Part shown: one piece after another, positions 41,072 through 57,000 of the stretch
Position numbering within the stretch: the first letter of the stretch is position 1
How the letters are laid out: every line of letters starts with the position of its first letter
Origin: Halanaeroarchaeum sp. HSR-CO
GTDB taxonomy: Archaea; Halobacteriota; Halobacteria; Halobacteriales; Halobacteriaceae
Assembly: GCF_024972755.1 (NCBI RefSeq)
Contig: NZ_CP087724.1
Coordinates: 1,798,001-1,862,000 of the forward strand
DNA length: 64,000 nt
Reading direction: 5' to 3'
Notes under the pieces: generated by a model
The model's database searches: none
The model's input: the letters and a program-made list of their open reading frames with translations, nothing else
Told to the model about the DNA's origin: nothing
Program-made: the position numbers and the translations under genes

Positions 41072-41160
41072 CAGTCTGAGAGCGTAATCGACACCCATCG
41101 ACAGGCACACGGCAGGTCCGAATTTCATCTCGCCATTTCGAACAAACCACTACAAGCATT

Positions 41161-41259
41161 CGCGGCGCGAGTGGTCCGAAGGACCCGGAAGCGCCGCGAT
41201 TTTCCGAGCGCGAAGCGCTCGGGCCAAGGAGTGACCAACGCGACGGCTTTGCCGTCGCG
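41161..41259. repeat. Three consecutive perfect hairpins downstream of ligA
   Basis: Three stem-loops follow each other: cgcggcgc/gcgccgcg with an inner ggtcc-gaa-ggacc, then ccgagcgc-gaa-gcgctcgg, then cgcgacggc-ttt-gccgtcgcg. Loops are gaa, gaa and ttt. They belong to the GC-rich host flank. Similar palindromic runs are frequent between convergent haloarchaeal genes and may end transcription. Confidence 0.75.
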
Positions 41260-41282
41260 GCAGGAGCGACGCCGGCTTTTTC

Positions 41283-41289
41283 CCCAAGT
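41283..41289 (+). repeat. Left candidate attachment core (cccaagt)
   Basis: Seven bases identical to the right copy at 52958. Joining the left flank to the right flank through this core gives ctttttccccaagtttttgccaggg, which restores a typical haloarchaeal inverted-repeat intergenic sequence. Seven bases also occur by chance (a third copy at 49923), so this rests on position as well. Confidence 0.5.
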
Positions 41290-41354
41290 GAATAAAATCT
41301 AAATCTACAAAACTTCTATACATTATAAACCCCCATGGCTAAGCCAAGGCAAAC

Positions 41355-41918
41355 ATGCCCCAAGTAAATCTCCGTGTGGACGAGTCCACAAAGGCAGAAT
41401 GGAAGGAATATCTGGAAGAGTCTGGAAGAGTCCACACACTTACCGACTTAATCAAGGTAAGCGTGGATGAGAAGATATCCAGTGAAGAGGGGGAAGATGA
41501 CACGGCTGGAGTTTCACCGGCACTTGAGAATGATATTCAGGACTTGAAGGATGAGCTTGAGGATGTCCGAAAAGATGTGGCCTGGTTACGTGAGCAACAG
41601 CAGGAGGATGTGGACATATCCGACCTCGCCCAAGAGGTCTATGATAGCCTGGAAGTCCTGCCAGAGCCGACTGACTCCCTTCAGATACCGCAGGACCAAG
41701 ATGCTACTGAGTATCGCCAGCGAAGGGCAGCTGAGCTGGTAGTCAGGCCCGAAAATGCAGACGATGAACCGTCTCCTCAAACCGCAGATTCCATAGCAGA
41801 CCGCCTGGGCACCAAAAAGAAACGAGTCGAAGATGCTATAGAGCATCTGAACGACCAGTTCCTCCCCGTTGTCGAAGTCGAATTGGACGGAGATGTTCAT
41901 TACTTCCGGGAGGAGTGA
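41355..41918 (+). CDS. RHH/coiled-coil/winged-helix DNA-binding protein next to the integrase
   Basis: A 187-residue protein with a ribbon-helix-helix-like N-terminus (PQVNLRVDESTKAEWKEYLE, residues 1-40), a coiled coil at about 60-90 (DIQDLKDELEDVRKDVAWLR) and a C-terminal winged-helix-like region (ADSIADRLGTKKKRVEDAIE). It ends 3 bases before the integrase start, so the two are co-translated. The arrangement recalls integrase operons of haloarchaeal proviruses in which small partners control direction of recombination; that role is inferred. Confidence 0.7.
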   Translation: MPQVNLRVDESTKAEWKEYLEESGRVHTLTDLIKVSVDEKISSEEGEDDTAGVSPALENDIQDLKDELEDVRKDVAWLREQQQEDVDISDLAQEVYDSLEVLPEPTDSLQIPQDQDATEYRQRRAAELVVRPENADDEPSPQTADSIADRLGTKKKRVEDAIEHLNDQFLPVVEVELDGDVHYFREE

Positions 41919-41921
41919 CCC

Positions 41922-42878
41922 ATGCACGAGATATTTGACGACCATCTGGACCTCCTCCGAGGCCAAGACAAGGCGAAGGGGACGATAAAGCAATATCAGG
42001 GTGGGCTCAAAGCCTACTCCGAGTGGCTTGAAGAGCAAGGCATCGAGCCCGAGGGAGCGTCTACGAGAGACATTCAACGGTATCTTTCCTTTTTAAAGAA
42101 TGAACGGGAGTATGCTCCCGGAACAGTCCGAGGCTACTACAGCTGTATCAGTGGCTTCTACAAGAATCTCGACAACACCGGGGTTATCGAGGAAGACCCG
42201 ACAGAGGGAATCACCCTCTCCAACTATGCGAGTCGGGAAACTCGAAAGCAACAGGAAACCAAAGAGCGTCGAGTTTGGCTGTCTCAAGAGGAGATGAGCC
42301 AACTGGTGGAGAATGTACCTGCGCCAACCGTCCGAAACCGGCTCCTCGTTCTATTTCAATACTTCACAGGGCTTCGTCGTCAGGAGGTCGTGGACGTTAA
42401 ACTCGAGGACATCGACCGCAAGGAGCGGATGGTCAAGGTTCAAGGGAAGGGGAACGTACTGAATACGGCATTCTGGCAGCCCAAGATGGACGGTCTGCTA
42501 ACAGCGTGGTTGGATGGTGGATACCGTGGTTCATCCCCACATGCGGAAGAGAGCCCGTATCTCTTTCTCTCGCAAGCCGCTCCCCAACTCAGCGGGGAAT
42601 ATGTGAACCGAATCGTGAAAGAGGCGGCTGAGGAAGCTGGTATTCAGGAAGTGCTCTTTGAGGATGCGAGAGGTCGGTCTCATTATAAATATACCTCCCA
42701 CGCTCTCCGACATTCCTTTGCCATGCACTGGCTCCAGAATGGTGGCTCACTTGCAACGCTTTCCAAGCAGATGGCCCACTCGTCTATCACAACGACTGAA
42801 ATCTATGGCGAGATACTGGACGAGCGTGCTAAGGAAGAGTACGACCAGTATGCTCCCGATATTGACCTCTCGTTTTAG
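41922..42878 (+). CDS. Tyrosine recombinase (integrase)
   Basis: A 318-residue phage-type integrase. The N-terminal SAM-like core-binding domain spans residues about 1-95 (TIKQYQGGLKAYSEWLEEQG). The catalytic domain shows Arg in FTGLRRQEVVDV, Lys in KVQGKGN, HALRH near 267, His in MAHSSITTTEIY and Tyr in the last motif. It lies close to the left attachment core, as expected for the element's own integrase. It cleaves and rejoins DNA to insert or excise the element. Confidence 0.92.
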   Translation: MHEIFDDHLDLLRGQDKAKGTIKQYQGGLKAYSEWLEEQGIEPEGASTRDIQRYLSFLKNEREYAPGTVRGYYSCISGFYKNLDNTGVIEEDPTEGITLSNYASRETRKQQETKERRVWLSQEEMSQLVENVPAPTVRNRLLVLFQYFTGLRRQEVVDVKLEDIDRKERMVKVQGKGNVLNTAFWQPKMDGLLTAWLDGGYRGSSPHAEESPYLFLSQAAPQLSGEYVNRIVKEAAEEAGIQEVLFEDARGRSHYKYTSHALRHSFAMHWLQNGGSLATLSKQMAHSSITTTEIYGEILDERAKEEYDQYAPDIDLSF

Positions 42879-43134
42879 GTGGCGGCCTTTCGACCGAATT
42901 CGGGGTGGGTGGATTTGACTATGGTTGAAAATCCGGTCCGTATGTCGGCCATGTGGCCGTCGATTGATTTGCATGTGGTTTGGCCCACCCAATCATCGAA
43001 TGGATTCAGGGCCCGATATGACGGGATTTGACGGGGTTCGATTTGCTATTGTCTTGGGTGCAAAAGTCGGATATATGGGGAATAGAGCCTCAAATACAGC
43101 CCATCTCAATATACAGTTCTACAGATTACCCAGC

Positions 43135-44991
43135 TCAGAATAGCTTCATTATTCTATCCACTACCCCTGATAATCCATCAAGTATCCCAGAGACGAATCC
43201 TCCGCTTTCATCCTCGGGGGAATCTACAGTCTCTTCTGTCGTTTGCTCGTTATCCGTTTGCTCCTCTTCTGTTTGCCCGTCAGCCGTTTCTTGGGCTTCC
43301 TCTACCCCACCGGCCAGTATTTGCTTTCGCATGGAATCCCGCAATTCGGCCATCTGGTCCGAAACCATCCCTTGGGACTGTTCGGATAACTGGTCAAATT
43401 CGAGGTCGCCAGTCCGTTCAAGCTCATATACGACCAGAATCTTCCCTTCCGGCAGGTCCCCATCGACTCGGTTTGTAGATACAACCTCACCGACGAGCCG
43501 ATATTCTCCCTGTTGCGGAGTATTGGGTTCGTCGTAGTGGGTGGATGACAGACCTGTGACCAACAGCACATCGTCACTCGATTCAGGTGTCGAGGACCAA
43601 GCTACCCCCGTATCAACGACTGTATCCTGGACGATATTCAGGCAGACCGGCCCGCTGGGAGTCGGTATTTGGGCCTGAGTTTGACCGCAGGGAGTGCTAT
43701 GTTCGAGTGTTTCCTGGATGCTGATTGATTCGCCATACAAACTCGCTTCCACACTCACCACGTCACCGTCAGATGCGTCCTGTTTCACTGACTGAATATC
43801 TGAATATTGGGTGCTATCCATCTCGTCAGTGACAACATAGAGGAGCGGGTGCCCATTGCTACTCTGAGCAATGCCAGATTGGTCTACAGTGTTGATGAAC
43901 TCTCTTGCCTCGCTATTTGGAGAGAGGACGATTGCATTGATGGTCGCAGGCGCATCCGACCAGTAAGTCGTCTCGAAATTTGCCGTATACACTCGCTCTG
44001 AATCTTGCTCGAGTAATTTGGTCGCCGCTTCTTGACCGGATTGAGACGTATCGCTCGATGAGGTATTAACGACGAAAGAACGAGCTTGTTCTCCCGGTTT
44101 CTCAAATAAATCTTGGGCAGATGTAGGGTCGTCACTGAGAACGCCAATGGAGGTGACAGCAGTAATTTCCTCTCCTTGGTCTGTGTCTGTCAGTGTGGAT
44201 ATTTTTCGGTGATTAGCTGTGACCTCCACGAGGTCGAGTGAATAAGAATCCGAGTTTGAGGCGATTTCGCCAACTGTTGCCGGTGAGCCGTCTGTCTCAA
44301 TGGATACCGACTGTGCCAGAATCGCACTGAACGAAAGCCCATTGAATGACATCTCCTGATTGACGGACTGTCCTGTGACAGTTGCCAGTCCTTTTCGTGG
44401 GTCGTCCTCAGTGAAGACGATATACAGGTCATCTTCTGTAGCGAGGACGAAGGCATGGGGAGCCACTTCACCAGGTATTTGCTGGCGATACTCTTCGATG
44501 TCGTCCTCTAAGGATGCTGGAATAGCAAAGGCAGCTCCAGTCGTCGTGGTTTGGACCGATGACGAGGCTGTATCTTCTACTTCTTGCACATCAATAGGCG
44601 CTGAGGCAGAGTTACTGAACGTCTGTCCTCCAAATTCGACCTCTGCAGCAATCTCCACATCATTCTCGCCAGCACTCTCGAACGTGTGGGTGAAATCTAC
44701 ACCAATCTCCTCCCCAGTCCCCACCGTGACTGTTTCTGATGACACCTGCTCCCCATCAATCAACAGGGAGACGGTAAGGTCCGTTTCAACACTCCCCACC
44801 AAATCCGGTGTTGAAATTGAGGGAGAGATGGTGGTGGACTCCCCGACAGTCGTTTCAGCTGGCACTCCGGGATTAATGGATAGCTGGTCTTGTTGTGCAG
44901 CGACAGGGCTCGCCAGAAGTGGTCCACCAATGGCAGAAAGGACCACCAGCGAAATCACCACAATGGTGTGAATTTGCTTATGGTTCATCAT
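43135..44991 (-). CDS. Large secreted/surface protein with signal peptide
   Basis: A 618-residue protein. The signal peptide (HKQIHTIVVISLVVLSAIGG...SPVAAQQ) is followed by an Ig-like segment at about 50-130 (VSLLIDGEQVSSETVTVGTG, CARDB-like), a long Ser/Thr-rich middle, and an acidic region ending in a hydrophobic or amphipathic helix (FVSGILDGLSGVVDRIMKLF). It may anchor by that C-terminal helix. No known family. It reads against the integrase, and is the largest gene of the element. A role on the cell surface or a particle surface is plausible. Confidence 0.75.
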   Translation of the reverse strand: MMNHKQIHTIVVISLVVLSAIGGPLLASPVAAQQDQLSINPGVPAETTVGESTTISPSISTPDLVGSVETDLTVSLLIDGEQVSSETVTVGTGEEIGVDFTHTFESAGENDVEIAAEVEFGGQTFSNSASAPIDVQEVEDTASSSVQTTTTGAAFAIPASLEDDIEEYRQQIPGEVAPHAFVLATEDDLYIVFTEDDPRKGLATVTGQSVNQEMSFNGLSFSAILAQSVSIETDGSPATVGEIASNSDSYSLDLVEVTANHRKISTLTDTDQGEEITAVTSIGVLSDDPTSAQDLFEKPGEQARSFVVNTSSSDTSQSGQEAATKLLEQDSERVYTANFETTYWSDAPATINAIVLSPNSEAREFINTVDQSGIAQSSNGHPLLYVVTDEMDSTQYSDIQSVKQDASDGDVVSVEASLYGESISIQETLEHSTPCGQTQAQIPTPSGPVCLNIVQDTVVDTGVAWSSTPESSDDVLLVTGLSSTHYDEPNTPQQGEYRLVGEVVSTNRVDGDLPEGKILVVYELERTGDLEFDQLSEQSQGMVSDQMAELRDSMRKQILAGGVEEAQETADGQTEEEQTDNEQTTEETVDSPEDESGGFVSGILDGLSGVVDRIMKLF

Positions 44992-45114
44992 GAGTGACCG
45001 ACTCACTACCAATTGACAAAAGTGTTATTCTTTAAAGTGTGCTTTTCACCCATTCTGGTTGTAAATAGCGTGAGTATACCTATAATATCCGAATAAGAGA
45101 TAGCGGGAACAAAG

Positions 45115-45351
45115 ATGCTTTTACGACAAATGCCGGGAGATGAGCGTAGTGGTCCATTCGAGAAGCAAGTCTCAGACGAGGATATTCTGGAGTTTATTGA
45201 GGTAGAAGAAGTGGTTACAACGAAAGAAGTGGCCGACGAGTTTGATTATCATATTCAGACTGCTAGACGGCGATTGAAGGAACTACATCAAGAGGGGGAG
45301 CTTCGGCAGAAGGACGTGGGTAAGAGGTTCGTTTGGTGGATTTCCTCGTAA
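45115..45351 (+). CDS. Small winged-helix regulator
   Basis: A 78-residue winged-helix protein: DEDILEFIEVEEVVTTKEVA, then YHIQTARRRLKELHQEGELR. The shape is the DeoR/Lrp-like wHTH common in haloarchaeal plasmids and proviruses. It is divergent from the secreted-protein gene, so it may regulate that gene and itself. The start at MLLRQMPGD is uncertain; the ATG at 45130 is an alternative. Confidence 0.68.
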   Translation: MLLRQMPGDERSGPFEKQVSDEDILEFIEVEEVVTTKEVADEFDYHIQTARRRLKELHQEGELRQKDVGKRFVWWISS

Positions 45352-45398
45352 GGCGTCAATTTTGTGTTATGAGAGAATCTTAATGGGAATTTCTACCG

Positions 45399-45410
45399 GT
45401 ATATTTAGTA
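45399..45410 (+). promoter_or_regulatory. TATA box of the UDG-like gene
   Basis: The bases ggtatatttagta lie about 30 bases before the ATG at 45435. This supports a leaderless message and a start at MDGEDSL rather than the upstream TTG. Confidence 0.6.
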
Positions 45411-45434
45411 ATATTGATTGAATCCGTCTGTCAT

Positions 45435-46163
45435 ATGGATGGAGAAGATTCCCTGAGAGAAGTTGGATATACCATTTGGGAAAACTGGTATGATGGAAAT
45501 GGACCGTGTAGACACTGTCCCAATCGAGACGAGAAAGGCTATTTCAATCCGAAAAATATTGACCCAGGGCCTGAATCTGGCGATTCAAACGCTGAGGTCG
45601 TATTCGTTGGGATGGAACCGAGCGATGAGATTGACGGGACATCCAGAAAGAATCTATCTGTAGATGAAGTCCCGGAAAGTTGGTCTAGGAGGAACAGGGA
45701 CCCCGGATTTTCTAACAATCGAGATGGTGAAGATACAATACGTGAATGGTTATTCTACGAATCTGACGGCAAGAAACGAATAGACCCCATATTCGATAAG
45801 AAATTGGAGGGCTCAGTCTACTATACCAATTCAAAAAAGTGTGCGAATACTGGTGAGAGGGACGAGCTCGCAAGGTGTTATTGTCATGACTATCTCTTCT
45901 CTCAACTTGCTGCGATTGAGCCTACTATAATCGTTCCCTTTGGCGAGAAGGCTGTCAAATCCTTATCCTTGCGATATTTCATCCCAAAATATTCCAAATT
46001 TTCAGATGTAGTAGTTGAAGTTATTGGAGAGACTCAGCCTCATATTATACCATCGTACCACTGGAGCCGACCAAATTTTGTGAGCAATATCGAGAGAGCA
46101 GGCTATGAAAGTGTACCCGATTATTGGGTTGAGTTAGTGGATGAAATCAATGCACAGCTCTGA
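45435..46163 (+). CDS. Uracil-DNA glycosylase superfamily-like protein
   Basis: A 242-residue protein with a UDG-fold layout. AEVVFVGMEPSDEIDG aligns with the motif-1 GEAPG loop of Fe-S-type UDGs, SVYYTNSKKC with the central strand, IVPFGEKAVKSL with the glycine-rich turn, and HIIPSYHWSR with the His-containing motif 2. Cysteines in CRHCP, KC and RCYC could hold an iron-sulfur cluster. The catalytic acid of motif 1 is altered, so the activity may differ. It stands alone behind its own TATA box. Confidence 0.62.
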   Translation: MDGEDSLREVGYTIWENWYDGNGPCRHCPNRDEKGYFNPKNIDPGPESGDSNAEVVFVGMEPSDEIDGTSRKNLSVDEVPESWSRRNRDPGFSNNRDGEDTIREWLFYESDGKKRIDPIFDKKLEGSVYYTNSKKCANTGERDELARCYCHDYLFSQLAAIEPTIIVPFGEKAVKSLSLRYFIPKYSKFSDVVVEVIGETQPHIIPSYHWSRPNFVSNIERAGYESVPDYWVELVDEINAQL

Positions 46164-46443
46164 GTCCCGGATGACTCACTAGCAAAAATCGCAACCATCT
46201 CGGGATGTCTGGCTGATGTGGAATATAGTGCTAGAATCTGTCTGGACGGGGATTTTGAATTCGCAATTGACGACACCCGCTATATAACAGTGCAAGCGAC
46301 GTTGATGGCTTTGCGGGCCCAATCCCTACCCAAAGCCCTCGACCAAATCACGACGCCCTTGACGCCGATTTGACGGCGATATAATCGGTCGTCGACCCCG
46401 GTTCGACCCTGAATTTATTGCCGATTTTACCCTATGAATTCGC
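46164..46443. other. Intergenic region before the serine recombinase
   Basis: No gene is supported in these 280 bases. It contains ttgacgccgatttgacggcgat and a TATA-like gaatttattgcc about 25-30 bases before the recombinase ATG. Near-repeats of gacgcc/ttgac could be recombinase binding sites, but I see no clean resolution site. Confidence 0.4.
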
Positions 46444-47097
46444 ATGATAGTAGCGGTATACGTCCGAGTTTCCACAGCTGAACAGAATTTAGACAGGCAG
46501 TTAGATAGCACTCACGAATATGCCACATCTGAGCTAGGTGTGGAGCTGAGCGACGTTGAGACCTTTCGGGACAAATCCACGGGGACGAACACCCAGCGCT
46601 CTGGCTACCAAGAAATGATGGAACATGTCCAGGATGGGAATGTGGACCATGTGGTGGTCCACGAGATCAGCCGGTTGGCTCGGTCACTGCAAGACCTGGA
46701 GCGTACTGTTACAAGAGTCACTGAAAATGGGGCAGGAGTCCACTTCGTCCGAGATGGACTGTCCTTCGGTGATGGGAAGGACAGGCCGATGCACAGGCTT
46801 CAGATGCAGATGTTGGGGGCATTTGCTGAATGGCAGGCGAGAGTGAAGCAAATGAATACCAAGGAGGGGATAGCAGCTCGGCAAGCTGAAGACGACTACC
46901 ACCATGGGAGACCTCCGCTTGGATTTGAGAAAGAGAATGGGAGGCTGATTGAGGGAGTGAATTACGACCAGGTTTGTGCTATACTGGATATGGTAGCTAA
47001 AGAAGAGTTGTCAAAGCGAAAAGCAGCGGAGGAGTTGCAGTCATCCCGCACAACGATTAGTAGGGCACTCGACAGAGTCGAATTGTACGGGGTTTAA
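46444..47097 (+). CDS. Serine recombinase (resolvase/invertase family)
   Basis: A 217-residue small serine recombinase. VAVYVRVSTAEQNLDRQLD holds the catalytic Ser in VRVST, and EISRLARSLQDLERTV, FAEWQARVKQMNTKEGIAA and a C-terminal HTH (SKRKAAEELQSSRTTISRAL) complete the family pattern. It may resolve element dimers or invert a DNA segment. It is a second recombinase type in one element, beside the tyrosine integrase. Confidence 0.9.
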   Translation: MIVAVYVRVSTAEQNLDRQLDSTHEYATSELGVELSDVETFRDKSTGTNTQRSGYQEMMEHVQDGNVDHVVVHEISRLARSLQDLERTVTRVTENGAGVHFVRDGLSFGDGKDRPMHRLQMQMLGAFAEWQARVKQMNTKEGIAARQAEDDYHHGRPPLGFEKENGRLIEGVNYDQVCAILDMVAKEELSKRKAAEELQSSRTTISRALDRVELYGV

Positions 47098-47213
47098 TCA
47101 TCACCCTTCTCTTTTTTCGTGTCCTCCTCTGTCGCATAGTTCGTTATTATCTCTCCTGAAAGGGAGGGGCCATCATCCATCTCCTCCTCATCATCGTCGT
47201 CACTCATTGTCAT
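47094..47213 (-). CDS. Tiny charged protein 3, 39 aa
   Basis: A 39-codon frame, acidic at the start (MSDDDDEEEMDDGPSLSG) and Lys-rich at the end (EEDTKKEKGDD). It follows tiny protein 2 in the same operon; start codons at 47213 (MTMSDDD) or 47207 are possible. GPSLSGE corresponds to GPDLEGQ and EPDFEGQ in its two neighbours. Function unknown. Confidence 0.55.
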   Translation of the reverse strand: MTMSDDDDEEEMDDGPSLSGEIITNYATEEDTKKEKGDD

Positions 47214-47334
47214 TCTCCTCTTTAACCTTATCTTCACTCTTCCCTAACGCTTCGACTTGTCCCTCAAAATCAGGCTCCTTTGTCCTATAATCATCTGTTT
47301 TCTCCTTCTCATTGTCATCGCCCTTGTCGCTCAT
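47200..47334 (-). CDS. Tiny charged protein 2, 44 aa
   Basis: A 44-codon frame beginning MSDKGDDNEKEKTDD with EPDFEGQ in the middle and KSEDKVKEENDNE at the end. Its ATG overlaps the stop of tiny protein 1 by the ATGA arrangement, and its stop overlaps the start of protein 3 frame. This chain of overlaps supports translation. Function unknown. Confidence 0.6.
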   Translation of the reverse strand: MSDKGDDNEKEKTDDYRTKEPDFEGQVEALGKSEDKVKEENDNE

Positions 47335-47423
47335 TGTCCGTCATCATCCCCCTTGTCCTTTCTTTTCTTTCCTTTTGAGACTCTTTGCCCCTCTAAGTCA
47401 GGACCGTCCTCATCGTCAGACAT
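47331..47423 (-). CDS. Tiny charged protein 1, 30 aa
   Basis: A 30-codon frame, MSDDEDGPDLEGQRVSKG then a Lys/Arg/Asp run (KKRKDKGDDDG). It starts 8 bases after the stop of the membrane-protein gene and ends in an ATGA overlap with tiny protein 2. The same sequence lies at the end of a longer frame starting further upstream. That longer frame would overlap the membrane gene. Confidence 0.55.
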   Translation of the reverse strand: MSDDEDGPDLEGQRVSKGKKRKDKGDDDGQ

Positions 47424-47431
47424 AGCTATAA

Positions 47432-48094
47432 TTAATCCCTCCAGCAACAAATGCTTTTCAGCCTTTCCACAGGTTCCACCACTGTCCAATATCGATGAAG
47501 CTGATTGAACCACTCAGAAACATACGTGAATATCAAAAGGATTGCCACAATCAGCGAAAGCGTCCATATTCCCACACTGTTACTTAGAGCGTCAGCGATA
47601 CCCAGAGCTAAGAAACTGAGGGACCACACCAAAAGCGTAGTCGTAGTTGTGAAGTAGAAGGCCGAGATGGTGATAGTATCAGAATTAAAATCAATCCATT
47701 TCCCCATTACCTTGGCTAACGACTCTTTATTGCTGAGTTCAGAATACCCTCCATCAATCAGCTCAGAAATATCAGATTGTGATACGCCGACGTACAAATC
47801 AGAGGCAGTATATGTGAGAGCAGCAAATGCAATCGAACCGAGTAGCAAGACAAGTCCTATAATAGTAAGTCCATTAAAGCCATCTCCTTTTAATTGAATA
47901 CTCGAATCAGACAAAACGAATGACAGGCCGGATATTACAATCCCAAGGATTACTGTATTAATTCTGAGTAACTTTGCTGCTTTCGTATCAATATCTGTGG
48001 AGCCTTCAATTTGCTTATTTAGAGTTTCTCTAGCCTCAGATAGAGTTAAGTCCGCAATCTCAATCTCCTCATCATTATCGTCTCCCCAGAACAT
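47432..48094 (-). CDS. Four-helix membrane protein with SLATT-like N-terminus
   Basis: A 220-residue membrane protein with four hydrophobic helices. The N-terminus has SEARETLNKQIEGSTDIDTK followed by AAKLLRINTVILGIVI, a pattern like the SLATT/DIDxKAxKLLR membrane effectors seen in haloarchaea. Such proteins are suspected pore-forming defence effectors; here this is inference. First gene of an operon with the three tiny charged proteins. It is read from a promoter in the AT-rich 48095-48160. Confidence 0.65.
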   Translation of the reverse strand: MFWGDDNDEEIEIADLTLSEARETLNKQIEGSTDIDTKAAKLLRINTVILGIVISGLSFVLSDSSIQLKGDGFNGLTIIGLVLLLGSIAFAALTYTASDLYVGVSQSDISELIDGGYSELSNKESLAKVMGKWIDFNSDTITISAFYFTTTTTLLVWSLSFLALGIADALSNSVGIWTLSLIVAILLIFTYVSEWFNQLHRYWTVVEPVERLKSICCWRD

Positions 48095-48502
48095 ACAGAT
48101 TCACAGTTGAGTATTAGTGTAATAAATTTTTATCTATGGTGGAAATCGTGACATCCAATGATATTATAAGCAAACCAATTTTCGTCCACCCTGTACGAAA
48201 ACGAACGTTTTCGACCAACCTGCAATTGCTAAAACATCCCCCAACCCAGATGAATATCCATTATTGCAAGGCAGATTGATTTAAGAGTGTATCTCTTTCA
48301 GCCATCAATAGACGGCAATAATTTGCTGGTGAGCATGAAGGATATTTGCAGGTAGCCCAGCGTTCTGTGGTCCATGGAGTCAGTTGTGTGATTGTTGGGG
48401 AGTGTGCGAGAGTTACGTGTGGAAGGGTTACGAATTCCTGAGGATAGTGAATTGAGAACACACTTCCAAACACTGTTATGTGGGTGGTAGCGTATCTGAG
48501 AT
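48095..48502. other. Intergenic region with an 8-base inverted repeat
   Basis: A 408-base gap between the divergent membrane-protein and pilin genes. It contains cgaaaacg-aa-cgttttcg at 48196-48213, a perfect inverted repeat that could be an operator or recombinase site, and AT-rich promoter sequence at each end. I find no gene; short frames on both strands have no support. Confidence 0.5.
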
Positions 48503-49747
48503 ATGGCGGAGGACCGTGGCGTTTCAGAGGTTATGGGGACAATTCTGATGGTGGCTATAGTTCTCATTCTTGCCACAGCACTCGGAGGTGCAGCACTGAC
48601 GACGTTTCAGAATGTCTCGTCGGAAACACCGGTTCTCCAAGCGAGTTTCGATGTAACCACTGACTCGGTTAGCGTGCAGCATCGAGGCGGTGAGTCTATC
48701 GAAATAAGTGACCTTCAACTCGTGCTACGAAATGAAAGCCAGCAAGTGAGATACCAGCTTAGCCAAGACAATCTAAGCAACACGAGCGACTCATTATTCG
48801 AACCCGGCGAATGGTGGTCAAGACAGCACAGCTTGACCTTTCACGAAGGCAGTTCTGCGGCACTTTTAATTCATACACCTTCGGACAAAGTCCTCGCGGA
48901 ATGGGAGGGCAAACCCACCTCTCCAACCACCACGACGACACCGACATCCACCTCCACAACGACGACTACGACTACGACTACGACTACCTCGCAGCCAGCG
49001 ACACAAGCGTACGACGATGAAAATGGGAACGGTGTCTATGACAGTGGCGAAACAACCTATTCCAAGAGCGAATTGTACAGCTTTAACGAGCCGAGTGCCA
49101 ATCTCGTAATCCCGACCGCTGTTGGTGAGTTAAATCGAAATGCTGGAGTATCGATTACCGCGAATAGCATTACTTCTGAGGTAGATATTGGGGCGACGTG
49201 GGGAAGTGTCTCCCTGACGGCAAGCGGTGGCGAGGTCCAGACCAGCCAAATTGTTGAAAGCAATGCTAATGTGGACATTCGCGGAGCAACTGTTGACATT
49301 TCGAATGGTGAAATTCGCTCGAGCTACGGTGATATCACCATTTCAGCAACAGAAGGAGGCGGCGGACAACTCTCTGCAACGGGTGCCTTCATCGAGACGG
49401 GCTCCAATATCATCCTTGAATCTGAGGGTCATTTGTCATTATCGAGTGGGGAAGTCCACTCCAGCTACGGTGATATTACGATTTCAGCAACACGTGGTGG
49501 CGGCGGACAACTCTCTGCAACGGGAGCCTTTATCGAGACAAACGAGAATATAATCCTTGAGTCTAAGGGCGATATGATACTGGATAGCGCCACCGTCCAG
49601 ACCTCCTACGGTCAGATTACTGCTGACCTCGGTGGTTCCAACACAATTCATATTAGCGAAACTGATGTTATCGGAACCTCAGCCATCGAATACACCCCTA
49701 GTGGGGTAACCGAAGTTCCCGAGCGTAACATCGCACATCCTCAATAA
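48503..49747 (+). CDS. Type IV pilin fused to Thr-rich stalk, EF-hand-like loop and beta-solenoid-like repeats
   Basis: A 414-residue protein. Residues 1-30 (DRGVSEVMGTILMVAIVLIL) are a class III pilin signal with cleavage before GVSEVMG and a long hydrophobic helix. Then an archaeal pilin core, a Thr-rich linker of about 25 residues encoded by a hexamer run (ctacga type), DDENGNGVYDSGE like a dockerin/EF-hand calcium loop, and a region with two close repeats SSYGDITISA...GGGGQLSATGAFIET about 47 residues apart. It is likely a surface or pilus-tip adhesin. Codons are AT-rich like the element. Confidence 0.82.
   Translation: MAEDRGVSEVMGTILMVAIVLILATALGGAALTTFQNVSSETPVLQASFDVTTDSVSVQHRGGESIEISDLQLVLRNESQQVRYQLSQDNLSNTSDSLFEPGEWWSRQHSLTFHEGSSAALLIHTPSDKVLAEWEGKPTSPTTTTTPTSTSTTTTTTTTTTTSQPATQAYDDENGNGVYDSGETTYSKSELYSFNEPSANLVIPTAVGELNRNAGVSITANSITSEVDIGATWGSVSLTASGGEVQTSQIVESNANVDIRGATVDISNGEIRSSYGDITISATEGGGGQLSATGAFIETGSNIILESEGHLSLSSGEVHSSYGDITISATRGGGGQLSATGAFIETNENIILESKGDMILDSATVQTSYGQITADLGGSNTIHISETDVIGTSAIEYTPSGVTEVPERNIAHPQ
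49318..49600 (+). repeat. Two tandem coding repeats of about 141 bases in the pilin fusion
   Basis: The unit starting agctacggtgatatcacc at about 49320 recurs at about 49461 with few changes; both contain the same ggcggcggacaactctctgc run. They encode SYGDITISAT, GGGGQLSATGAFIET and IILES, a periodic pattern of a parallel beta-solenoid. A third, partial match (SSYGDI to TSYGQI) follows at 49604. Confidence 0.8.
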
Positions 49748-50164
49748 GAATACACCAAGTCATCGATTCAACAATATACATCCTCCTTCTTGTACAGGAG
49801 ATTGTTAATATTGGAGAACTGTTGCTGCTAAGTTGAAGACGGCAAAGGCACCGTGCCAGTGTTATCTGGCATAAATAACACCGAGATACGTGTGTTGCAA
49901 AATCGCTCGTAGCGACTGTTGCCCAAGTAATTAGTAACGGATGGAAACTCTGATTGCTATGTGAGAGTACCCACTACTATACCCCCTACACCGTCCCATC
50001 TGTGAACTCCAGAATTGGGGAAATAGGATTAGGTAATCTTGTATGAAGGCACGCTTAGGACGGTCCTTTAGGGATTGTCTCCACGAGATTAGACCCGATA
50101 TACGCCATCATTTAGCTTAGACCGACCCTGCGTTTTTGACCTTAGAAATCCTAAAAATTCCAAA
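49748..50164. other. Non-coding stretch with short hairpins
   Basis: These 417 bases hold no supported gene. Two small hairpins are visible: gtgttat/ataacac at 49859-49881 and tcgct-cgt-agcga at 49903-49915, followed by tgttgcccaagt, which contains a third copy of the 7-base cccaagt. An untranslated RNA or a degraded gene is possible, with no further support. Confidence 0.4.
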
Positions 50165-50479
50165 ATGACCCTATGGAAAACTGGGATTGAAATCTCGAGC
50201 CGAGCCGACTTCCACGACCTCTTAGCATGGGTCAAAGCATCCGAGCGGCGAGTTGGAATCATACAATCCCTCGAGGACAATCCCAAGAACTCGACCGAGT
50301 TAGCGGGACAATGGGACGTAACTAACGAAGCAATCCACTATCATTTGGACTTGTTACGTCGAGGCGGTCCGAACGGTGACTATCCTGACCTCGTTCGGAT
50401 AGTTACCCCAGACCGTGAGCGCTACCGACTATGGGGATTGACTCACCAAGGCCAAAAACTCGTGGAATATCTCGACTGA
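50165..50479 (+). CDS. Winged-helix regulator
   Basis: A 104-residue protein with an ArsR-like winged helix: RRVGIIQSLEDNPKNSTELA, then TNEAIHYHLDLLRRGGP and ERYRLWGLTHQGQKLVEYL. Single-domain regulators of this kind are common in haloarchaeal mobile DNA. No partner overlaps it. Its start is preceded by AT-rich promoter sequence. Confidence 0.72.
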   Translation: MTLWKTGIEISSRADFHDLLAWVKASERRVGIIQSLEDNPKNSTELAGQWDVTNEAIHYHLDLLRRGGPNGDYPDLVRIVTPDRERYRLWGLTHQGQKLVEYLD

Positions 50480-50534
50480 AAAGAGGTGAGTTATTTCGGC
50501 GTGTGTTTGCGTGGGGGTATGGGGTGGCGTTGGT

Positions 50535-50807
50535 CTATGCGTCCATGTACGCTTCCCAGTCGTCTTCGTCCAGTTCTAACCATTCCATGATGCCCGTCGC
50601 GTCGTCCTCGAACAAGACGGCGGCCAGGTGGGGCGTCAATTGCGCGTATAGCTCGTCAACATCTTCGACCCCTTCACGGATGCGACCCCCACGCCGGACA
50701 AGCTGATACGCCTCACGTTGCGTGTCTGACCCGTCACTGTTGAACTCGATGTACGTCTTGCTGGCGGTACTGCCGTCGTCGTCCTTCTTCAATTCGTGGA
50801 TGCTCAT
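50535..50807 (-). CDS. Acidic hypothetical protein, 90 aa
   Basis: A 90-residue acidic protein (KKDDDGSTASKTYIEFNSDG, then DATGIMEWLELDEDDWEAYM). GC content is higher than in its element neighbours. I find no known domain. It is convergent with the winged-helix gene, 55 bases apart. The ATG at 50807 is chosen because upstream codons run through poorly coding sequence. Confidence 0.55.
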   Translation of the reverse strand: MSIHELKKDDDGSTASKTYIEFNSDGSDTQREAYQLVRRGGRIREGVEDVDELYAQLTPHLAAVLFEDDATGIMEWLELDEDDWEAYMDA

Positions 50808-51190
50808 GGCGTTCACGCTCGCACACGTCCATGGTGCGAGCGAGGAGAGGTCTCCTGTGTGGGGTAATAAATGCAGTCTCAAGTTTCGAGTAAGAAATGG
50901 CGAGAATTATCCGCCCCATGCATTTGATACCTATTCGGTGATGCCCTAGAATCAGGAGTACGGGTGGTTTGAGTTACGATTCAAGGGGGATGTCGGCGAG
51001 AGTGGATTACCGTTAGCTGACGTGAAGAAACTCCTAGAGGAGCTGGCTAGCTGATATTTGATTACTAGCGAGATGACCATCATGTCATTAGACAAGGAGA
51101 AGGCTAGGTTGGAATATCGAAATACCCGGAGAAATTCACTCTTAGCACCTCTCTCATAACTTTCACCATATTAGATATGATTTCAACCAT
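50808..51190. other. Intergenic stretch with a short gene remnant
   Basis: No intact gene here. At 50950-51054 a plus-strand frame reads EYGWFELRFKGDVGESGLPL and ADVKKLLEELAS then stop, protein-like in composition. A nearby ATG is followed by CCC and an in-frame TAG, so it cannot start there. It is likely the 3' end of a dead gene. The rest is AT-rich with no signals I can name. Confidence 0.4.
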
Positions 51191-51673
51191 ATGATATACG
51201 GGGATGGGGGACAACTACCGGGTGCAATGCCAGAGGAAAACGACAACGACAACGAATGGGACGGAGACGCCTCTAGTTCCGAGAATCAGACCGAACTAGC
51301 AGAGGCTGAAGTAATTGACGCTGAAGAAGTAGACCACAATCCTGCTCTTTCCAAAGACGTGGAGGCACTAGCCACTTTCTCCGAGGAGGAAGGCCCGCTG
51401 TCCTTCCGCATTATGCCAGCAATTGAGGGAGGGCAGACTGACTGGAGACTCAATGTCTACTCTAGTGGAGTTCAGGGTCCCATCTATCAATCGAGGGATG
51501 GACTGACAGCTCAAGCTGTGGAGCAGTTCGGCATTAGCTCTATACTTCAGAGCAGGGTGAATGATGCCCTCCACTACGCCAAAAAGAACCTGGAAGTTCC
51601 AGATGGATTGGGAGACCAAAAGCGTGAGAAGCGCAGTCTCCACGAGCTAGAGGTCATGATGGAGGAGTCATGA
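51191..51673 (+). CDS. Hypothetical protein, 160 aa
   Basis: A 160-residue acidic protein (ENDNDNEWDGDASSSENQTE) with a more ordered C-terminal half (LSFRIMPAIEGGQTDWRLNV). A second in-frame ATG at 51227 is possible. It overlaps the next gene by ATGA, so the two are co-translated. No known domain. Confidence 0.6.
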   Translation: MIYGDGGQLPGAMPEENDNDNEWDGDASSSENQTELAEAEVIDAEEVDHNPALSKDVEALATFSEEEGPLSFRIMPAIEGGQTDWRLNVYSSGVQGPIYQSRDGLTAQAVEQFGISSILQSRVNDALHYAKKNLEVPDGLGDQKREKRSLHELEVMMEES

Positions 51674-51951
51674 GCTCTCCTGTACATACTAGCCCAGAGG
51701 CATCCCACTCGGACGATGAAATTCGTGAATTCATCCGGTCCAAAGAGACATTCACAGAACTTCTGAAGGAGTTTAACACCGAGAAATCCACTTACGAACT
51801 CGTGACTGCTGTCCAAGGGATAGGCCGAGAAATAATCGAGGAGGAGCGTCTGCATGACAGTTATCTGAGCCCGCTCGAGGTAGGATGGCTGAGGCTTCTG
51901 TGGGAGCAAGACGCAGAGGAGAATAACGAATTCCTCTCACAGTTCAAGTAA
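51670..51951 (+). CDS. Hypothetical protein, 93 aa
   Basis: A 93-residue mostly helical protein (DEIREFIRSKETFTELLKEF, then LSPLEVGWLRLLWEQDAEEN). It starts inside the end of the preceding gene. Possibly a partner of that protein. I do not recognise it. Confidence 0.58.
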   Translation: MSSPVHTSPEASHSDDEIREFIRSKETFTELLKEFNTEKSTYELVTAVQGIGREIIEEERLHDSYLSPLEVGWLRLLWEQDAEENNEFLSQFK

Positions 51952-52105
51952 GCAACATAACTAACGGAGACAAATCATCACCGAGAATCGGGTTCGGGAA
52001 CCCGACTACCCACTGTTCCCTTACCTGTAGTCGGCAATAAGGTTTGTGTCCCGACACAACCGAATTGTTGGCATACGGCTCGGTGGAGTCACCACAATCA
52101 CACTG

Positions 52106-52858
52106 ATGACCATCGAAGACTCAGAGAAAGCACAGTATCGCCTCGACAAAGACGCATACAATCTCATCAAGTATGAGATAGTCGAAGAGACGGATTTGGA
52201 TTCAGTCGCGGATTTTGTCCGTATCGCGGTCAGTCAACATGCGGGAAACCTAGCCCAAGAGGCCAAAGGAGGACGATTAGCACTCTCATTGACCAGACGA
52301 TTATCGAATATTCGCGGGATTGAGGAGTCTGTAAATCAGGAATCTGCGGATGCTATCACGTTTCGGGATAATGAACTAGAGAAGTCATTGACAGTAAATC
52401 TCTCCACGAAGAGCCTGAGCAAACTGGGAGAGTTACAGGACGAAACAGGCCTGACACTTTCCGAGGCTATCCGCGCCTGCGTGTACGCTCAACTAGGAAA
52501 TATGGCGGAGTCAGATGATATCCGAAAAGATGGCGATGCGTTAGAGGCAGTCAGAGCGTGGAGTGAGGTGAAAACGAGACTTGAAGAGCCAATTAACGGA
52601 TTTTACCATGTACTCTTCAAGCGGTTTGAATTGCAGCGCGCTCAGACCCGATACTTCATTGAGACTGATAGAGGTGCGTTCAATGATTTCGCTGAGATGT
52701 ACAAACAGGATTTCATCGACTCGCCAGGGTATGAGAAGATAGCCAACCACTACGGAGAAAGCACGCTGAATACAGTAGAGAATTTCGTTGGAGAACTAAC
52801 TGGTTATTCAACCAGCTCGGATTCTAGCTTCCTCGAAGAGTACCTTACTGAAGGGTAA
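52106..52858 (+). CDS. Double ribbon-helix-helix-like DNA-binding protein
   Basis: A 250-residue protein with two similar segments: AQYRLDKDAYNLIKYEIVEE...SVADFVRIAVSQHAGN at about 8-50 and LTVNLSTKSLSKLGELQDET...SEAIRACVYAQLGN at about 108-150. Each has a strand plus two helices like a ribbon-helix-helix unit, so one chain may form a whole RHH dimer. A helical C-terminal half follows. A regulator or partition-type protein at the right end of the element. I choose the ATG at 52106 over a GTG 60 bases upstream. Confidence 0.62.
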   Translation: MTIEDSEKAQYRLDKDAYNLIKYEIVEETDLDSVADFVRIAVSQHAGNLAQEAKGGRLALSLTRRLSNIRGIEESVNQESADAITFRDNELEKSLTVNLSTKSLSKLGELQDETGLTLSEAIRACVYAQLGNMAESDDIRKDGDALEAVRAWSEVKTRLEEPINGFYHVLFKRFELQRAQTRYFIETDRGAFNDFAEMYKQDFIDSPGYEKIANHYGESTLNTVENFVGELTGYSTSSDSSFLEEYLTEG

Positions 52859-52957
52859 CACCCCGTTTTGTCTACTACTACCCCGTGTAGTTTGTAGTCC
52901 AGTGGAATGGGTGCAACAATGTATGGTATATATTACGTATATAATTTACTCGCCCTT

Positions 52958-52964
52958 CCCAAGT
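52958..52964 (+). repeat. Right candidate attachment core (cccaagt)
   Basis: Seven bases identical to the left core at 41283-41289 and at the right compositional edge. It is the left arm of an inverted repeat (cccaagtttttgc against gcaaaaagtggg at 52997-53008) that surrounds a GC-rich hairpin, so the element would have inserted into the foot of this stem. Confidence 0.5.
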
Positions 52965-52972
52965 TTTTGCCA

Positions 52973-52993
52973 GGGCCGCGCTCCGCGCGGCCC
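52973..52993. terminator. GC-rich hairpin downstream of top6A
   Basis: gggccgcg-ctccg-cgcggccc forms an 8-base stem with a 5-base loop, flanked by ttttt on one side and aaaaa on the other. It lies just past the top6A stop and, read from either strand, ends in a T-run, so it could end transcription from both sides. Confidence 0.5.
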
Positions 52994-53010
52994 ACAGCAA
53001 AAAGTGGGTT

Positions 53011-54090
53011 CTAGAGGACGCCCATCTCGTCCAGTCGCTCCGGCAGGTACGTGTCCGTCACGAAGTCGAGACCGCGGGAGGCCAGTGCCTGCTGTTCTGC
53101 CTTCTTGTCGATGTCGAGTTGGATCTCGATCTGTTCTTCCCAGTAGTCCGTCTGGAACCGGGGATCCTCCAGTTCGCTCTCCAGGGCGTTGACGTCCGAA
53201 TCCGAGAGCGGGTCGGTCGGGAGGTCGTACTCGACGATGTCCTCCGGGCGGATGCCGATGAACTCCGCCTGGGGGGTCGCCAGATATTCGGAGAGGTGGG
53301 CGCTCTTGATGGACCCGTACGCCACCGACCCGTAGATGCGATACGACCAGGGGTCACCGTCTGTGAAGACCGTGACCGGCAAGTCGAGTTCGTCGTGGAG
53401 TCGCTTGGTGATGCGGCGGGTCGCCCGAGCTGGCTGTCCCTTCAGGTGGACGAGGATGGCGTTGTACTCGTCGTCGAAGCCGTTCTCGACGAGCCGGTCG
53501 CGCATACCACCGGTCTCGACAGCCAGGACGAAGTCGGCGTCGTGATCGAGAAAGTCGATGGTGTCCGGGTTATTGGGGATCTGATAGCCGCCCTCGCCGA
53601 CGTCGAGCTGGCAGTGGATCTCCCGTTCACCTCGTCGCGTCTGCTCGCGAAGGTGCAATGGACCCATCAGGGTAGCGCCGGACTCCTCGGGCCGCATGTG
53701 GAAGTCCTCGCGTTTGACCCCCGAGACGATCTCGAGGTCCTCGATGAGTTTGTCCGACTGGCTCTGATCGGAGAACTTCGCTTCGTCCTCGTCCCAGGAC
53801 TCCGAGAGGTAGTACAACTCCCGCAGGGTCGAGGAGCGGCCCTCGTCGAGTTGCTTGGCGAGGAACTCGATGGTGTAGACGGCCTTGAGGAGTTTCCGGG
53901 CGCCGCTAACCGTGTTCGCACTGCGGGTGCTCGTGCGGTCCCCGTAGACCCAGACGTTGCTGTCCTCGTCGTACTCGATGTTGGACTTCGAGCGCGTGGG
54001 GACCTCCATCGAGGGGACGTCGCCGAGGGCGAACTGGTCGTAGAACTGCGCCGCGAGATCGATGAGTCGAGATTGTGCGTCGTCGCTCAT
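53011..54090 (-). CDS. top6A: DNA topoisomerase VI subunit A
   Basis: The Spo11-like DNA-cleaving subunit, 359 aa. The winged-helix (5Y-CAP) domain carries the Tyr pair in [12 protein letters not shown] at 93-94, one of which attacks DNA. The Toprim domain has [13 protein letters not shown] (Glu) and [12 protein letters not shown] (Asp-x-Asp). It relaxes and decatenates DNA with subunit B. Translation is coupled to top6B (its start overlaps the top6B stop by ATGA). Confidence 0.95.
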
Positions 54091-57000
54091 TGGTTCACCG
54101 TGAGTTTCGCGTCCTCGACGCCCTGCACCGAGAGATCGTAGGTGGCGTCGCCGTCGACCTGGTACTCGAGTGTGGCCTCCTCGCCGCTACCGACGGTCGG
54201 ATTCCACTTGAGGAAGTACTCGCCGTCCATCTCGACGACGTTCGCCCCGGGGTCCTCGGGGTCGACGACGACGTCCGTCGGTTCCACCGAGACGATGTCG
54301 GTGATCTCCAGATCCGCGTTCGTCGAGTCGTTGTTCTCCACCACGACGCGGACGGTCTCGTCCTCGACGTCGCGTTCCACGAGGACGTTGTTCATGATGC
54401 GCGCCATGGAGTCGTTCACCTCGAGTGGTGGCTGGCCCGTCATCTCCGCGACCTTCGCCGCCATCTTCGGGAGAATGTCGGCGATGACCGTCTGCTTCTT
54501 GCGTCGCTTCTCCATCGACCGGCGCTTGTTGAGATACGATTTCAACTCGCGGGCGGCCTCCCGGACGGCCAGTTCGATTTCGTCTTCGATTTCGGGGACG
54601 TTCGCGAGCGCGTCTTTGGATTCGCTCGTGAACGGGACGTTCGTCGAGGCGACGTGGATCATGATCACGACGGGGCCGTTCGGGAGGCCCGAGCCCCCTG
54701 GCTGTTCGAGCCCGTAGTTGCGCCAGCCGATTCCCTTCACCACGTCCGTCGTCGCACACGCCCCGCGCTGGTAGACGAGCGGGACGCGGTTTGCAAAGCG
54801 CATGAGATCGGCGCTCCCCTCGTCGAGGAGGTCACCGCCGTAGGCGATACCGGCCTCGACGATGAACGGGTCGCCGCCGTGGACCGAGGCGTCCCTCGTC
54901 GAGGCGGCGTAGAACTCGGCGTCGACCTCCTTGCGGAGGCCCGCCTCGACGAGTTCGGCGGTGATGGGCGAGAGACAACTCGTCGGCGGCGCCATCACGT
55001 TGACCGCGTTCATCGCGTCGAGGAGCATTCCCGCCAGGTCGCGTTCCGCGCCGAGTTGCCTGGTCTTCGGGACCTCGCCGTCGATGCGCGCCATCGAAGT
55101 CCAGAGGCGTTCGATGACGTTCTCGCGGGCCGTCTCGCCCACGTTGGCGTCGTCCATCTCGACGGTCATCTCCGCGGCGCGGTCGACCACGTCGGCGAGA
55201 TCCGACCGCGTGAGTCGGTCGTTCGGGGAGTCGTCGAGTCTGCTGGCAATGCGTTCGGCCAGGCCGTGGACGGTCGCATCGTCTTTCTGGCTGGTCGTCG
55301 CCGCGTCGACGTGTTTGTACAGCGCCGAGACGCGATCGGCAGTCAATACGCTCCAGACGGCCTCGACGACGTTCTCCTGGACCGTCGTCCCGAAGGTCGT
55401 CCCCGTCTCCTCGCCGACGTTCTCGGCGACGTCCGCGACCGCCTGGACGAGTTCGTCGTGGCCGAGGGGCGAGCGCTTCTCGAGAACGTGGTCGAGTCGC
55501 TCCGCAAACGACCGTTTGTCCTGGGTCCGCTTGTTGGAGATCGCGGCAACGACCTCCCGTCGAAGGTCGACGTCCTCGTGATCCCTGGGGACCGGCCAGC
55601 GAAGTTCGCGACCGAAGTGTCGGTCGCGGAACTCGGCCAGGATATCGTCGGCGGTCTTGCGGCCTACGCGGGTGAACTCCTCCTGGAGGAACCCCCGTGC
55701 GGAGTGCGAATCGGTCCCCTGGAGCATCTTGATGAGGGTGCCGAGTTCGACGCCATGGGGGTGCGGACGGATTTCCTCGGTCTCCGTGGGGAGTTCCGCG
55801 TTCTCGACGCGTTCGGACTTGAGGTGGGCGTCCGGCTCCCGGAGTTCGATGCGGGCGTGCGGGTTGACCACCGCGGTGTGGCGGATGTAGTCGTGGAGTT
55901 GTGAGCGGGCCCGCATGTTGGCTTCCATCTCGAGTTCGATGCGCGTGCCGTGTCCACGATCCCAGGTGGTGGTCTCCTGTTTCCGGATCTCGGGTTCGTT
56001 CGTATCCGTGTCGATGACTAACTCGAAGTACCGCGCCTCGGATTGCCCCTGGGTTCGACTCGTGATCTTCGCCGGTTTCCCGCTGGTCAACTGGGAGTAG
56101 AGGACGGCCGCGGAGATGCCGATGCCCTGCTGGCCGCGACTGTTCTTCACGGCCAGTGCACCTTCGTTGACGACGACGAAGTTCTCGTCTCTACCCGTCG
56201 CTCCTGGCACGGAGATGTCGTAGACGTACTCTGGTGGATCAGTCTCCGTCACGTCGGTCACGGGAAGCAGGCTCATGTCCGACTCGGAGATCCCCTGCAG
56301 ATCCCGGATTGTAGAATAGAGGTCCCGAAGAGCCGCTGTGGGCTCCAGGTTTTCGTTTAACAGTCCCTTCTCTACGAGATTGTAAGAATACCGTGGGACG
56401 TCAGCTCTCCCCTCATCCAAGGCGGTCTCGATGACTCGCTGGTACTCGGCTGCGAATTCGGGGGATGAACCGACACCGGCCCCATAGAGGAGTCCGGGGA
56501 TAGTATCTGAGACCGTCGTCGCATCTACAGCGTCGACACGAACGTCGTCGAGGAGGGACACCGGAATGCGCTTGTAGCCCTGCACCCCCGATGGTTGCCG
56601 TTCACCATACGAGTCGAGGACATTCAGATCGTCCCCGTACACTTTCGTCCGATAGACCGTCGAACCATCATCGGCAAAGCCGCCATTGTGTTCCTGGCGT
56701 TCCGTACTCGCGAGGACTCCCTGCATGTTCCAGAGGATGGAGAGTTCCTGCGCGAGTCTCTGGCTGACCGTCGTATGCGAGAGTTCGTTACTCGGATGCG
56801 CGTCCGACCCGTCCCCCTGATAGACGGTCGTAAGGAATTGTCGCTGCGCGTCTGACGGCGCGTCGAAGACAAACGACGGAACGCGCTTTTCCTCAGCACC
56901 CGCCCCACAGACGTTCTTGAGGAACATGGCGATTGGCGATCCGAACGCCTTGACGCGCGTCGAATTGCGCTTTCGGGCGACAGTCGTCGTCTCACACCCC

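Follow-up and report, generated by a model that had tools for sequence, protein, structure and literature searches.

The window, by which we mean the whole stretch of 64,000 nucleotides that was analyzed, corresponds to positions 1798001–1862000 of the chromosome contig of a haloarchaeal genome (2.79 Mb), that of Halanaeroarchaeum sp. HSR-CO. It contains a gene for a modular protein composed of a pilin signal, an Ig-like head, a Ser/Thr-rich linker, a calcium-type loop, and a β-solenoid (Table 1), for which coordinates, strand, and length had all been given correctly in the initial annotation. The gene lies on an island that is conspicuous by its composition: GC content drops from ∼59–69% to 41–56% between 41.0 and 53.0 kb, and homology to the sister genome ends at 41049 and restarts at 53012. 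Beside two recombinases, the island encodes small regulators, a uracil-DNA-glycosylase-like protein, and membrane or secreted proteins. The distance between the flanking genes (for DNA ligase and topoisomerase VI subunit A) ranges among relatives from 0.28 kb (G031) over 1.3 (G005), 1.6 (G010), 2.4 (G001 and G008), 4.1 (G006), and 5.1 kb (G002) to 11.9 kb in the window's genome, which identifies this junction as an insertion hotspot. No direct repeats of at least 14 nt joining the island ends were found (short or diverged sites could escape at this length), and no tRNA genes in the 64-kb window; the left 7.9 kb of the island, when compared at the DNA level with plasmids and phages, gave one match of only 68 bases. 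The earlier description as an integrated element holds, by composition and content, for a genomic island, but does not extend to exact ends or to mobility, which is plausible.

Table 1. Features of the island and of the pilin-solenoid gene (positions refer to the window).
Feature	Position	Strand	Details
AT-rich genomic island	41050–53011		GC profile; flanked by genes for DNA ligase and topoisomerase VI subunit A
XerC/D-type tyrosine recombinase	41922–42878	+	PF00589, E 1.5e-29
Serine resolvase-type recombinase	46444–47097	+	PF00239, E 1.9e-35
Gene for modular pilin-solenoid protein	48503–49747	+	414 aa plus stop
Prepilin signal and hydrophobic helix	48503–48604	+	aa 1–34; TIGR02537, E 2.2e-9; predicted cut after G6
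Ig-like pilin head	48605–48913	+	aa 35–137; PF07790, 8fj5 match, full-length model
Thr/Ser-rich linker	48914–49000	+	aa 138–166, 29 residues; 79% Ser/Thr; low pLDDT at 139–162
EF-hand-type loop capping solenoid	49016–49051	+	aa 172–183; conserved ligand positions
Right-handed β-solenoid	49118–49657	+	aa 206–385; AlphaFold2 model of aa 165–414
First copy of 47-residue duplicated unit	49301–49435	+	DNA self-comparison, self-alignment
Second copy of 47-residue duplicated unit	49442–49576	+	81% DNA identity; dN/dS ∼0.25
C-terminal cap	49658–49744	+	aa 386–414; common to homologues (alignment)

The uracil-DNA-glycosylase-like protein (45414–46163, plus strand) is a divergent member of that superfamily (PF03167, E 4.6e-9) that scores far below the family-4 cut-offs; its gene neighbors one for a winged-helix protein. 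The pilin gene is preceded by a divergently transcribed gene for a small membrane protein (47432–48094, minus strand) with sub-threshold resemblance to DUF4231 (E 0.27); the gene at 43135–45012 (minus strand) specifies a secreted protein of 625 aa that has an acidic C-terminal part but no family match. Beyond the island, the ORF for topoisomerase VI subunit B (54087–58193, minus strand; 1368 aa) carries, judged from reading the translation, a large in-frame intein-like insertion.

The protein begins with MAEDRG, after which (G6) the cut is predicted, followed by VSEVMGTILMVAIVLILATALGG; the RG-type cut motif is also present in the host's own PilA-type pilins. The pilin signal proposed initially was recognized by TIGR02537 (archaellin/pilin N-terminal domain; aa 4–35, 36.6 bits versus a cut-off of 20) and PF07790 (Pilin_N; aa 5–78, E 3.7e-14, 53.8 bits versus a cut-off of 25.2), and phmmer found the solved Haloferax volcanii pilus subunit 8fj5 (aa 3–71, E 2.1e-5). 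By its defining sequence features, the protein is an archaeal type IV pilin. In the full-length model, the head is of moderate confidence, with strands at aa 45–136 and with FlaF, FlaG, and 8fj5 among the first, albeit weak, Foldseek rows; the linker and the first 42 residues, including the hydrophobic helix, are of low confidence. The linker, which is devoid of charged residues, corresponds to the Thr-rich stalk that had been described from the sequence. Contrary to what might be concluded from the assumption that most archaeal pilins have fewer than 200 residues, long pilins are a minority, yet not exceptional: about 20 of the 120 above-cut-off Pilin_N matches in 26 genomes of the family lie in open frames of at least 300 aa, lengths that were measured from stop to stop and are therefore upper bounds. 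The head is only 27–39% identical to the other pilins compared, and assembly into a PilA pilus is therefore not assured. Matches to the pilin N-terminus also came from three PHROG families of unknown function, among them phrog_16897 (E 9.5e-7 over aa 2–155); thus, some viruses in that collection have pilin-like genes.

Residues 172–183 (DENGNGVYDSGE) fit an EF-hand loop, as D172-x-N174-x-N176-G-V178-x-D180-x-x-E183 corresponds to its positions 1, 3, 5, 7, 9, and 12. Ligand residues are found at positions 1, 3, 5, 9, and 12 (D172, N174, N176, D180, and E183), and D172, G175, G177, Y179, D180, G182, and E183 are invariant in six aligned proteins, which substantiates the EF-hand-like segment recognized earlier. 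From the invariant ligands, the loop would be expected to bind Ca2+. The solenoid previously suggested from the repeats was likewise corroborated: AlphaFold2, run with a six-sequence alignment, yielded a confident solenoid model (pLDDT 89.6, pTM 0.89), and the full-length model contains the same solenoid. Within the solenoid gene segment, the two 135-nt repeat copies (spaced 141 nt) encode 36 identical residues out of 45. Because dN (0.14) is only about a quarter of dS (0.55), and because 14 of the 26 nucleotide differences fall on third codon positions, the duplication has been under purifying selection at the protein level. The best off-diagonal score of the self-alignment was 222, compared with a maximum of 50 among 100 shuffles.

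VIA-align returned 80 chains with Z of at least 8, and its top rows span the entire solenoid model. Best were right-handed β-helices (AlgE4, Z 15.7), the AlgE4 epimerase, PL6, pectate, and other lyases ranging between Z 13 and 16; further matches were tailspikes, a Ca2+-dependent antifreeze protein (Z 13.7), and tapirins (Z 11.2–11.3), so that polysaccharide lyases and phage tailspikes make up most of the fold matches. As a Foldseek search with the solenoid returned no significant match (the first rows were tapirins, E 0.5), only the β-helix fold class is claimed. Tapirins are surface adhesins; the C-terminal domains of those from Caldicellulosiruptor (6n2b, 6n2c) are β-helices and have only the fold class in common with the window protein, and tapirins lack its pilin head. 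A profile search for solved relatives of the loop-solenoid domain gave none that was convincing, and no Pfam or NCBIfam model covers this module in the window protein; matches to PF13332 or PF05594 (Fil_haemagg-type; best 2.7e-7) were obtained for a few homologues but not for the window protein. The high rank of the epimerase and the lyases would be in keeping with an enzyme that acts on surface or environmental polysaccharide while held on the pilus or cell surface. However, the β-helix is a common fold, identity to these matches is just 6–14%, coil number is freely variable, and the solenoid of the homologues contains neither conserved catalytic-type residues nor a conserved polar cluster of the enzyme type, the invariant acids being confined to the loop. 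With conserved polar residues absent from the solenoid, an enzyme is not favored and, in our estimate, highly improbable.

The pairing of a pilin with a β-solenoid is also encountered in ComZ of Thermus thermophilus. According to the parts of the source covered here, this pilin-like protein binds DNA and is proposed to be a DNA receptor at the pilus tip; its solenoid of ∼380 residues is inserted in the pilin fold with little flexibility, a rigid geometry favoring the tip (PMC6561018). Although both are type IV pilin-like proteins with a large β-solenoid, ComZ is bacterial and its solenoid is inserted, whereas that of the window protein trails a complete head and a linker and is capped by an EF-hand-type loop, to which those parts of the ComZ source make no reference. 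The absence of ComZ among the VIA-align matches listed is uninformative either way. Despite this resemblance, that the window protein would serve as a DNA receptor for uptake is extremely improbable, as its solenoid is strongly acidic (5 Lys/Arg versus 21 Asp/Glu), although acidity is general among haloarchaeal proteins.

A profile for the module (loop plus solenoid), derived from an alignment, matched 56 of 392 genomes of the order; a phylum-wide draw with a stricter cut-off yielded matches in 14 genomes from the order and in one from elsewhere. Full homologue ORFs possess the same loop, mostly a common C-terminal cap, and a variable number of coils, a variation for which the initial annotation had proposed to look. 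At least four kinds of N-terminus precede the module: Pilin_N, DUF7289-like (with a QxGAxLLF-type hydrophobic start, one member matching the DUF7289 model weakly), SipW-type (TIGR04088 in three members, the remainder assigned by resemblance), and TafC-like (weak matches, best E 1e-10, all far below the cut-off of the family, NF052521). Among 35 solenoid proteins, six were found by reading to have a Pilin_N head (seven at E ≤ 0.01): the window protein and those of G001, G010, G013, G015, and Halobellus captivus (L089). Additional domains can be placed between anchor and solenoid, as exemplified by PKD in L089. Homologues lacking the pilin N-terminus had been regarded as evidence against the original proposal; the head does recur in these six, but in the rest, other segments for secretion or anchoring take its place, and the solenoid is thus a portable surface module rather than a pilin domain. 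The nearest solenoid relatives of the window gene (34–41% identity) are of the SipW type and come from another family (G131, G093). The TafC family comprises proteins of haloarchaeal Tat-fimbriae; the window protein differs in its N-terminus from those solenoid carriers that start in a TafC-like manner. Among genomes of the host's family, another twenty loci for long pilins contained no additional solenoid tails, and some of them represent other pilin-like classes. In one genome (G142, L029:5932–8915), a DUF7289-like solenoid-tailed protein directly precedes, in the same orientation, a long modular pilin; a long pilin is paired with a DUF7289-like gene also in L024, L033, and L089.

When the neighbors of solenoid genes elsewhere were compared with the island proteins, only a resolvase-like stretch beside L084 was in common, which indicates that the solenoid travels without a fixed gene set. 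The location on an island with recombinases, and the fact that plasmid-encoded PilV tips determine conjugation partners in bacteria (PMC9045228), would fit a function in the island's own transfer or defense, either as a pilus part aiding mating or by blocking elements or viruses at the surface. However, no conjugation or pilus-assembly genes were recognized among the island proteins scanned, the same pilin-solenoid fusion occupies ordinary chromosomal loci in other genomes, and no relatives were found in phages, plasmids, or viral contigs. We therefore did not retain host contact or exclusion on behalf of the element, as suggested in the initial annotation, and consider it improbable.

Two chromosomal loci document what can happen to the tail of such a pilin. 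The first is common to the sister genome G001 (L024) and Halanaeroarchaeum sp. HSR-CO (L033, at 2.19 Mb), with flanking DNA mostly 80–90% identical. There, the heads are 61% identical over 166 aa, the tails (loop-solenoid in G001, Thr-rich linker and PKD-like tail in the window's genome) align no better than shuffles (34 versus 32). The G001 solenoid has no C-terminal cap and is directly followed by an ORF that appears transposase-like by eye (L024:7569–8096), which is why it may be truncated. The second locus is common to G004, G010, G013, and G015, with flanks mostly 70–90% identical; the tail is a solenoid in G013 (L028) and consists of 539 aa of other repeats in G004 (L025), whose protein does not match the solenoid profile. 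DNA identity between these two amounts to 87.5% from the upstream flank through head and linker to approximately codon 191, breaks there, and returns at 89.5% within 20 nt past both stop codons; the heads are 71% identical. The tails of G013 and G004 score 113 versus 64 for shuffles, which is read as common composition, but they may be remotely related; those of G010 and G004 score 59 versus 60. Both loci represent natural tail replacements, with breakpoints at linker and gene end.

Exchange of pilin tails is known from the PilV shufflon adhesins of the IncI-complex plasmids TP114 and R64, where it alters partner choice (PMC9045228). Like the pilins described here, PilV keeps its pilin N-terminus constant and has C-terminal recognition domains that can be exchanged, but its tails are swapped within the cell by a dedicated recombinase, whereas the archaeal exchange is seen between species. 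A PilV-type shufflon was rejected for the window pilin, as no silent tail cassettes were found: the host genome has only one match to the solenoid, and the island contains no inverted copies of the tail.

From these observations, we consider it probable that the gene specifies a modular pilin whose outer domain, serving adhesion or recognition, is displayed on a type IV pilus and replaced as a cassette. Against this reading speak the low identity of the head to other pilins, the occurrence of β-helices also in enzymes and in purely structural proteins, the prevalence of polysaccharide lyases and phage tailspikes among the fold matches, and the fact that the majority of module carriers have N-termini other than that of a pilin and may function away from pili. 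The host possesses one A24 prepilin peptidase, PilA-type pilins, and adjacent T2SSE and T2SSF (PilB/PilC-type) genes at four places (642–646, 1376–1379, 1679–1681, and 1874–1877 kb); thus, the island pilin can use this machinery in trans. It is also conceivable, but unlikely, that the protein functions as an individually membrane-anchored adhesin, with the pilin signal serving only insertion and processing and the solenoid remaining outside filaments. Such an anchor would agree with the occurrence of the module behind several other N-termini, which leaves surface display as the common factor, with the divergence of the head, and with a gene that stands alone on an island without pilus genes. 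In contrast, a complete Ig-like head kept through tail exchange exceeds the needs of an anchor, and pilus machinery is present in the host; the intact head and its conservation across tail exchange argue for incorporation into a filament.

If the protein is a displayed pilin, the prepilin would enter the membrane, and the host peptidase would, as the prepilin signal implies, cut ahead of the hydrophobic segment. Chromosomal PilB/PilC-type machinery would then assemble the protein together with PilA-type pilins, among which it would probably be a minor subunit. The head would be part of the filament, with the solenoid kept at a distance by the Ser/Thr linker, which may be glycosylated. The EF-hand-type loop would cap the solenoid, presumably locked by Ca2+ through its invariant ligands. 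Surface adhesion remains the best reading of the earlier proposal of an adhesin at the pilus end or on the surface, but placement at the tip is not supported, as a flexible 29-aa linker allows lateral display as well. The long, acidic, Ser/Thr-rich solenoid may bind a ligand, most likely glycans on other cells, S-layers, or the biofilm matrix. The analogy is with UpsA of Sulfolobales, in which a divergent pilin region sets cell–cell recognition, probably via S-layer glycans (PMC7064770), and it makes glycan binding the most likely use, although in UpsA the region is a short divergent stretch within the subunit, whereas the window protein has an added domain. Both cassette replacement of the tail at the linker and duplication of coils are seen in the sequences, and either might alter specificity. 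Via the island, the host would gain a solenoid-tailed pilin alongside its chromosomal PKD-tailed one.

The PilA adhesion pilins of Haloferax volcanii (8fj5; PMC4371748) have a Pilin_N signal and an Ig-like head, as does the window protein; the PilA-type pilins of the host (∼165 aa) end after the head, to which the window protein adds linker, loop, and solenoid. In its working, the window pilin resembles PilV tips and ComZ, yet it is built as neither. The literature, as far as it was covered (in part, so that absence proves little), describes neither a protein built from pilin, linker, loop, and solenoid nor archaeal pilins with replaced tails. The fusion alone is a modest variant; the new point is the modularity, that is, a conserved head with a replaceable tail, and it suggests that these archaea may alter what their surface filaments stick to by tail exchange. 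More tentatively, and with some doubt, the haloarchaea could maintain a cassette system between strains, in which head and linker act as a socket, unrelated tails (solenoid, PKD, Ig-like, or other repeats) are exchanged by recombination at linker and gene end, and islands move new tails between species. How archaeal pili discriminate between partners or surfaces is largely open outside the Sulfolobales, and natural orthologous pilin pairs that differ mainly in their tail make specificity directly testable by tail exchange. If such a cassette system exists, self-recognition or partner choice would be resettable in one step.
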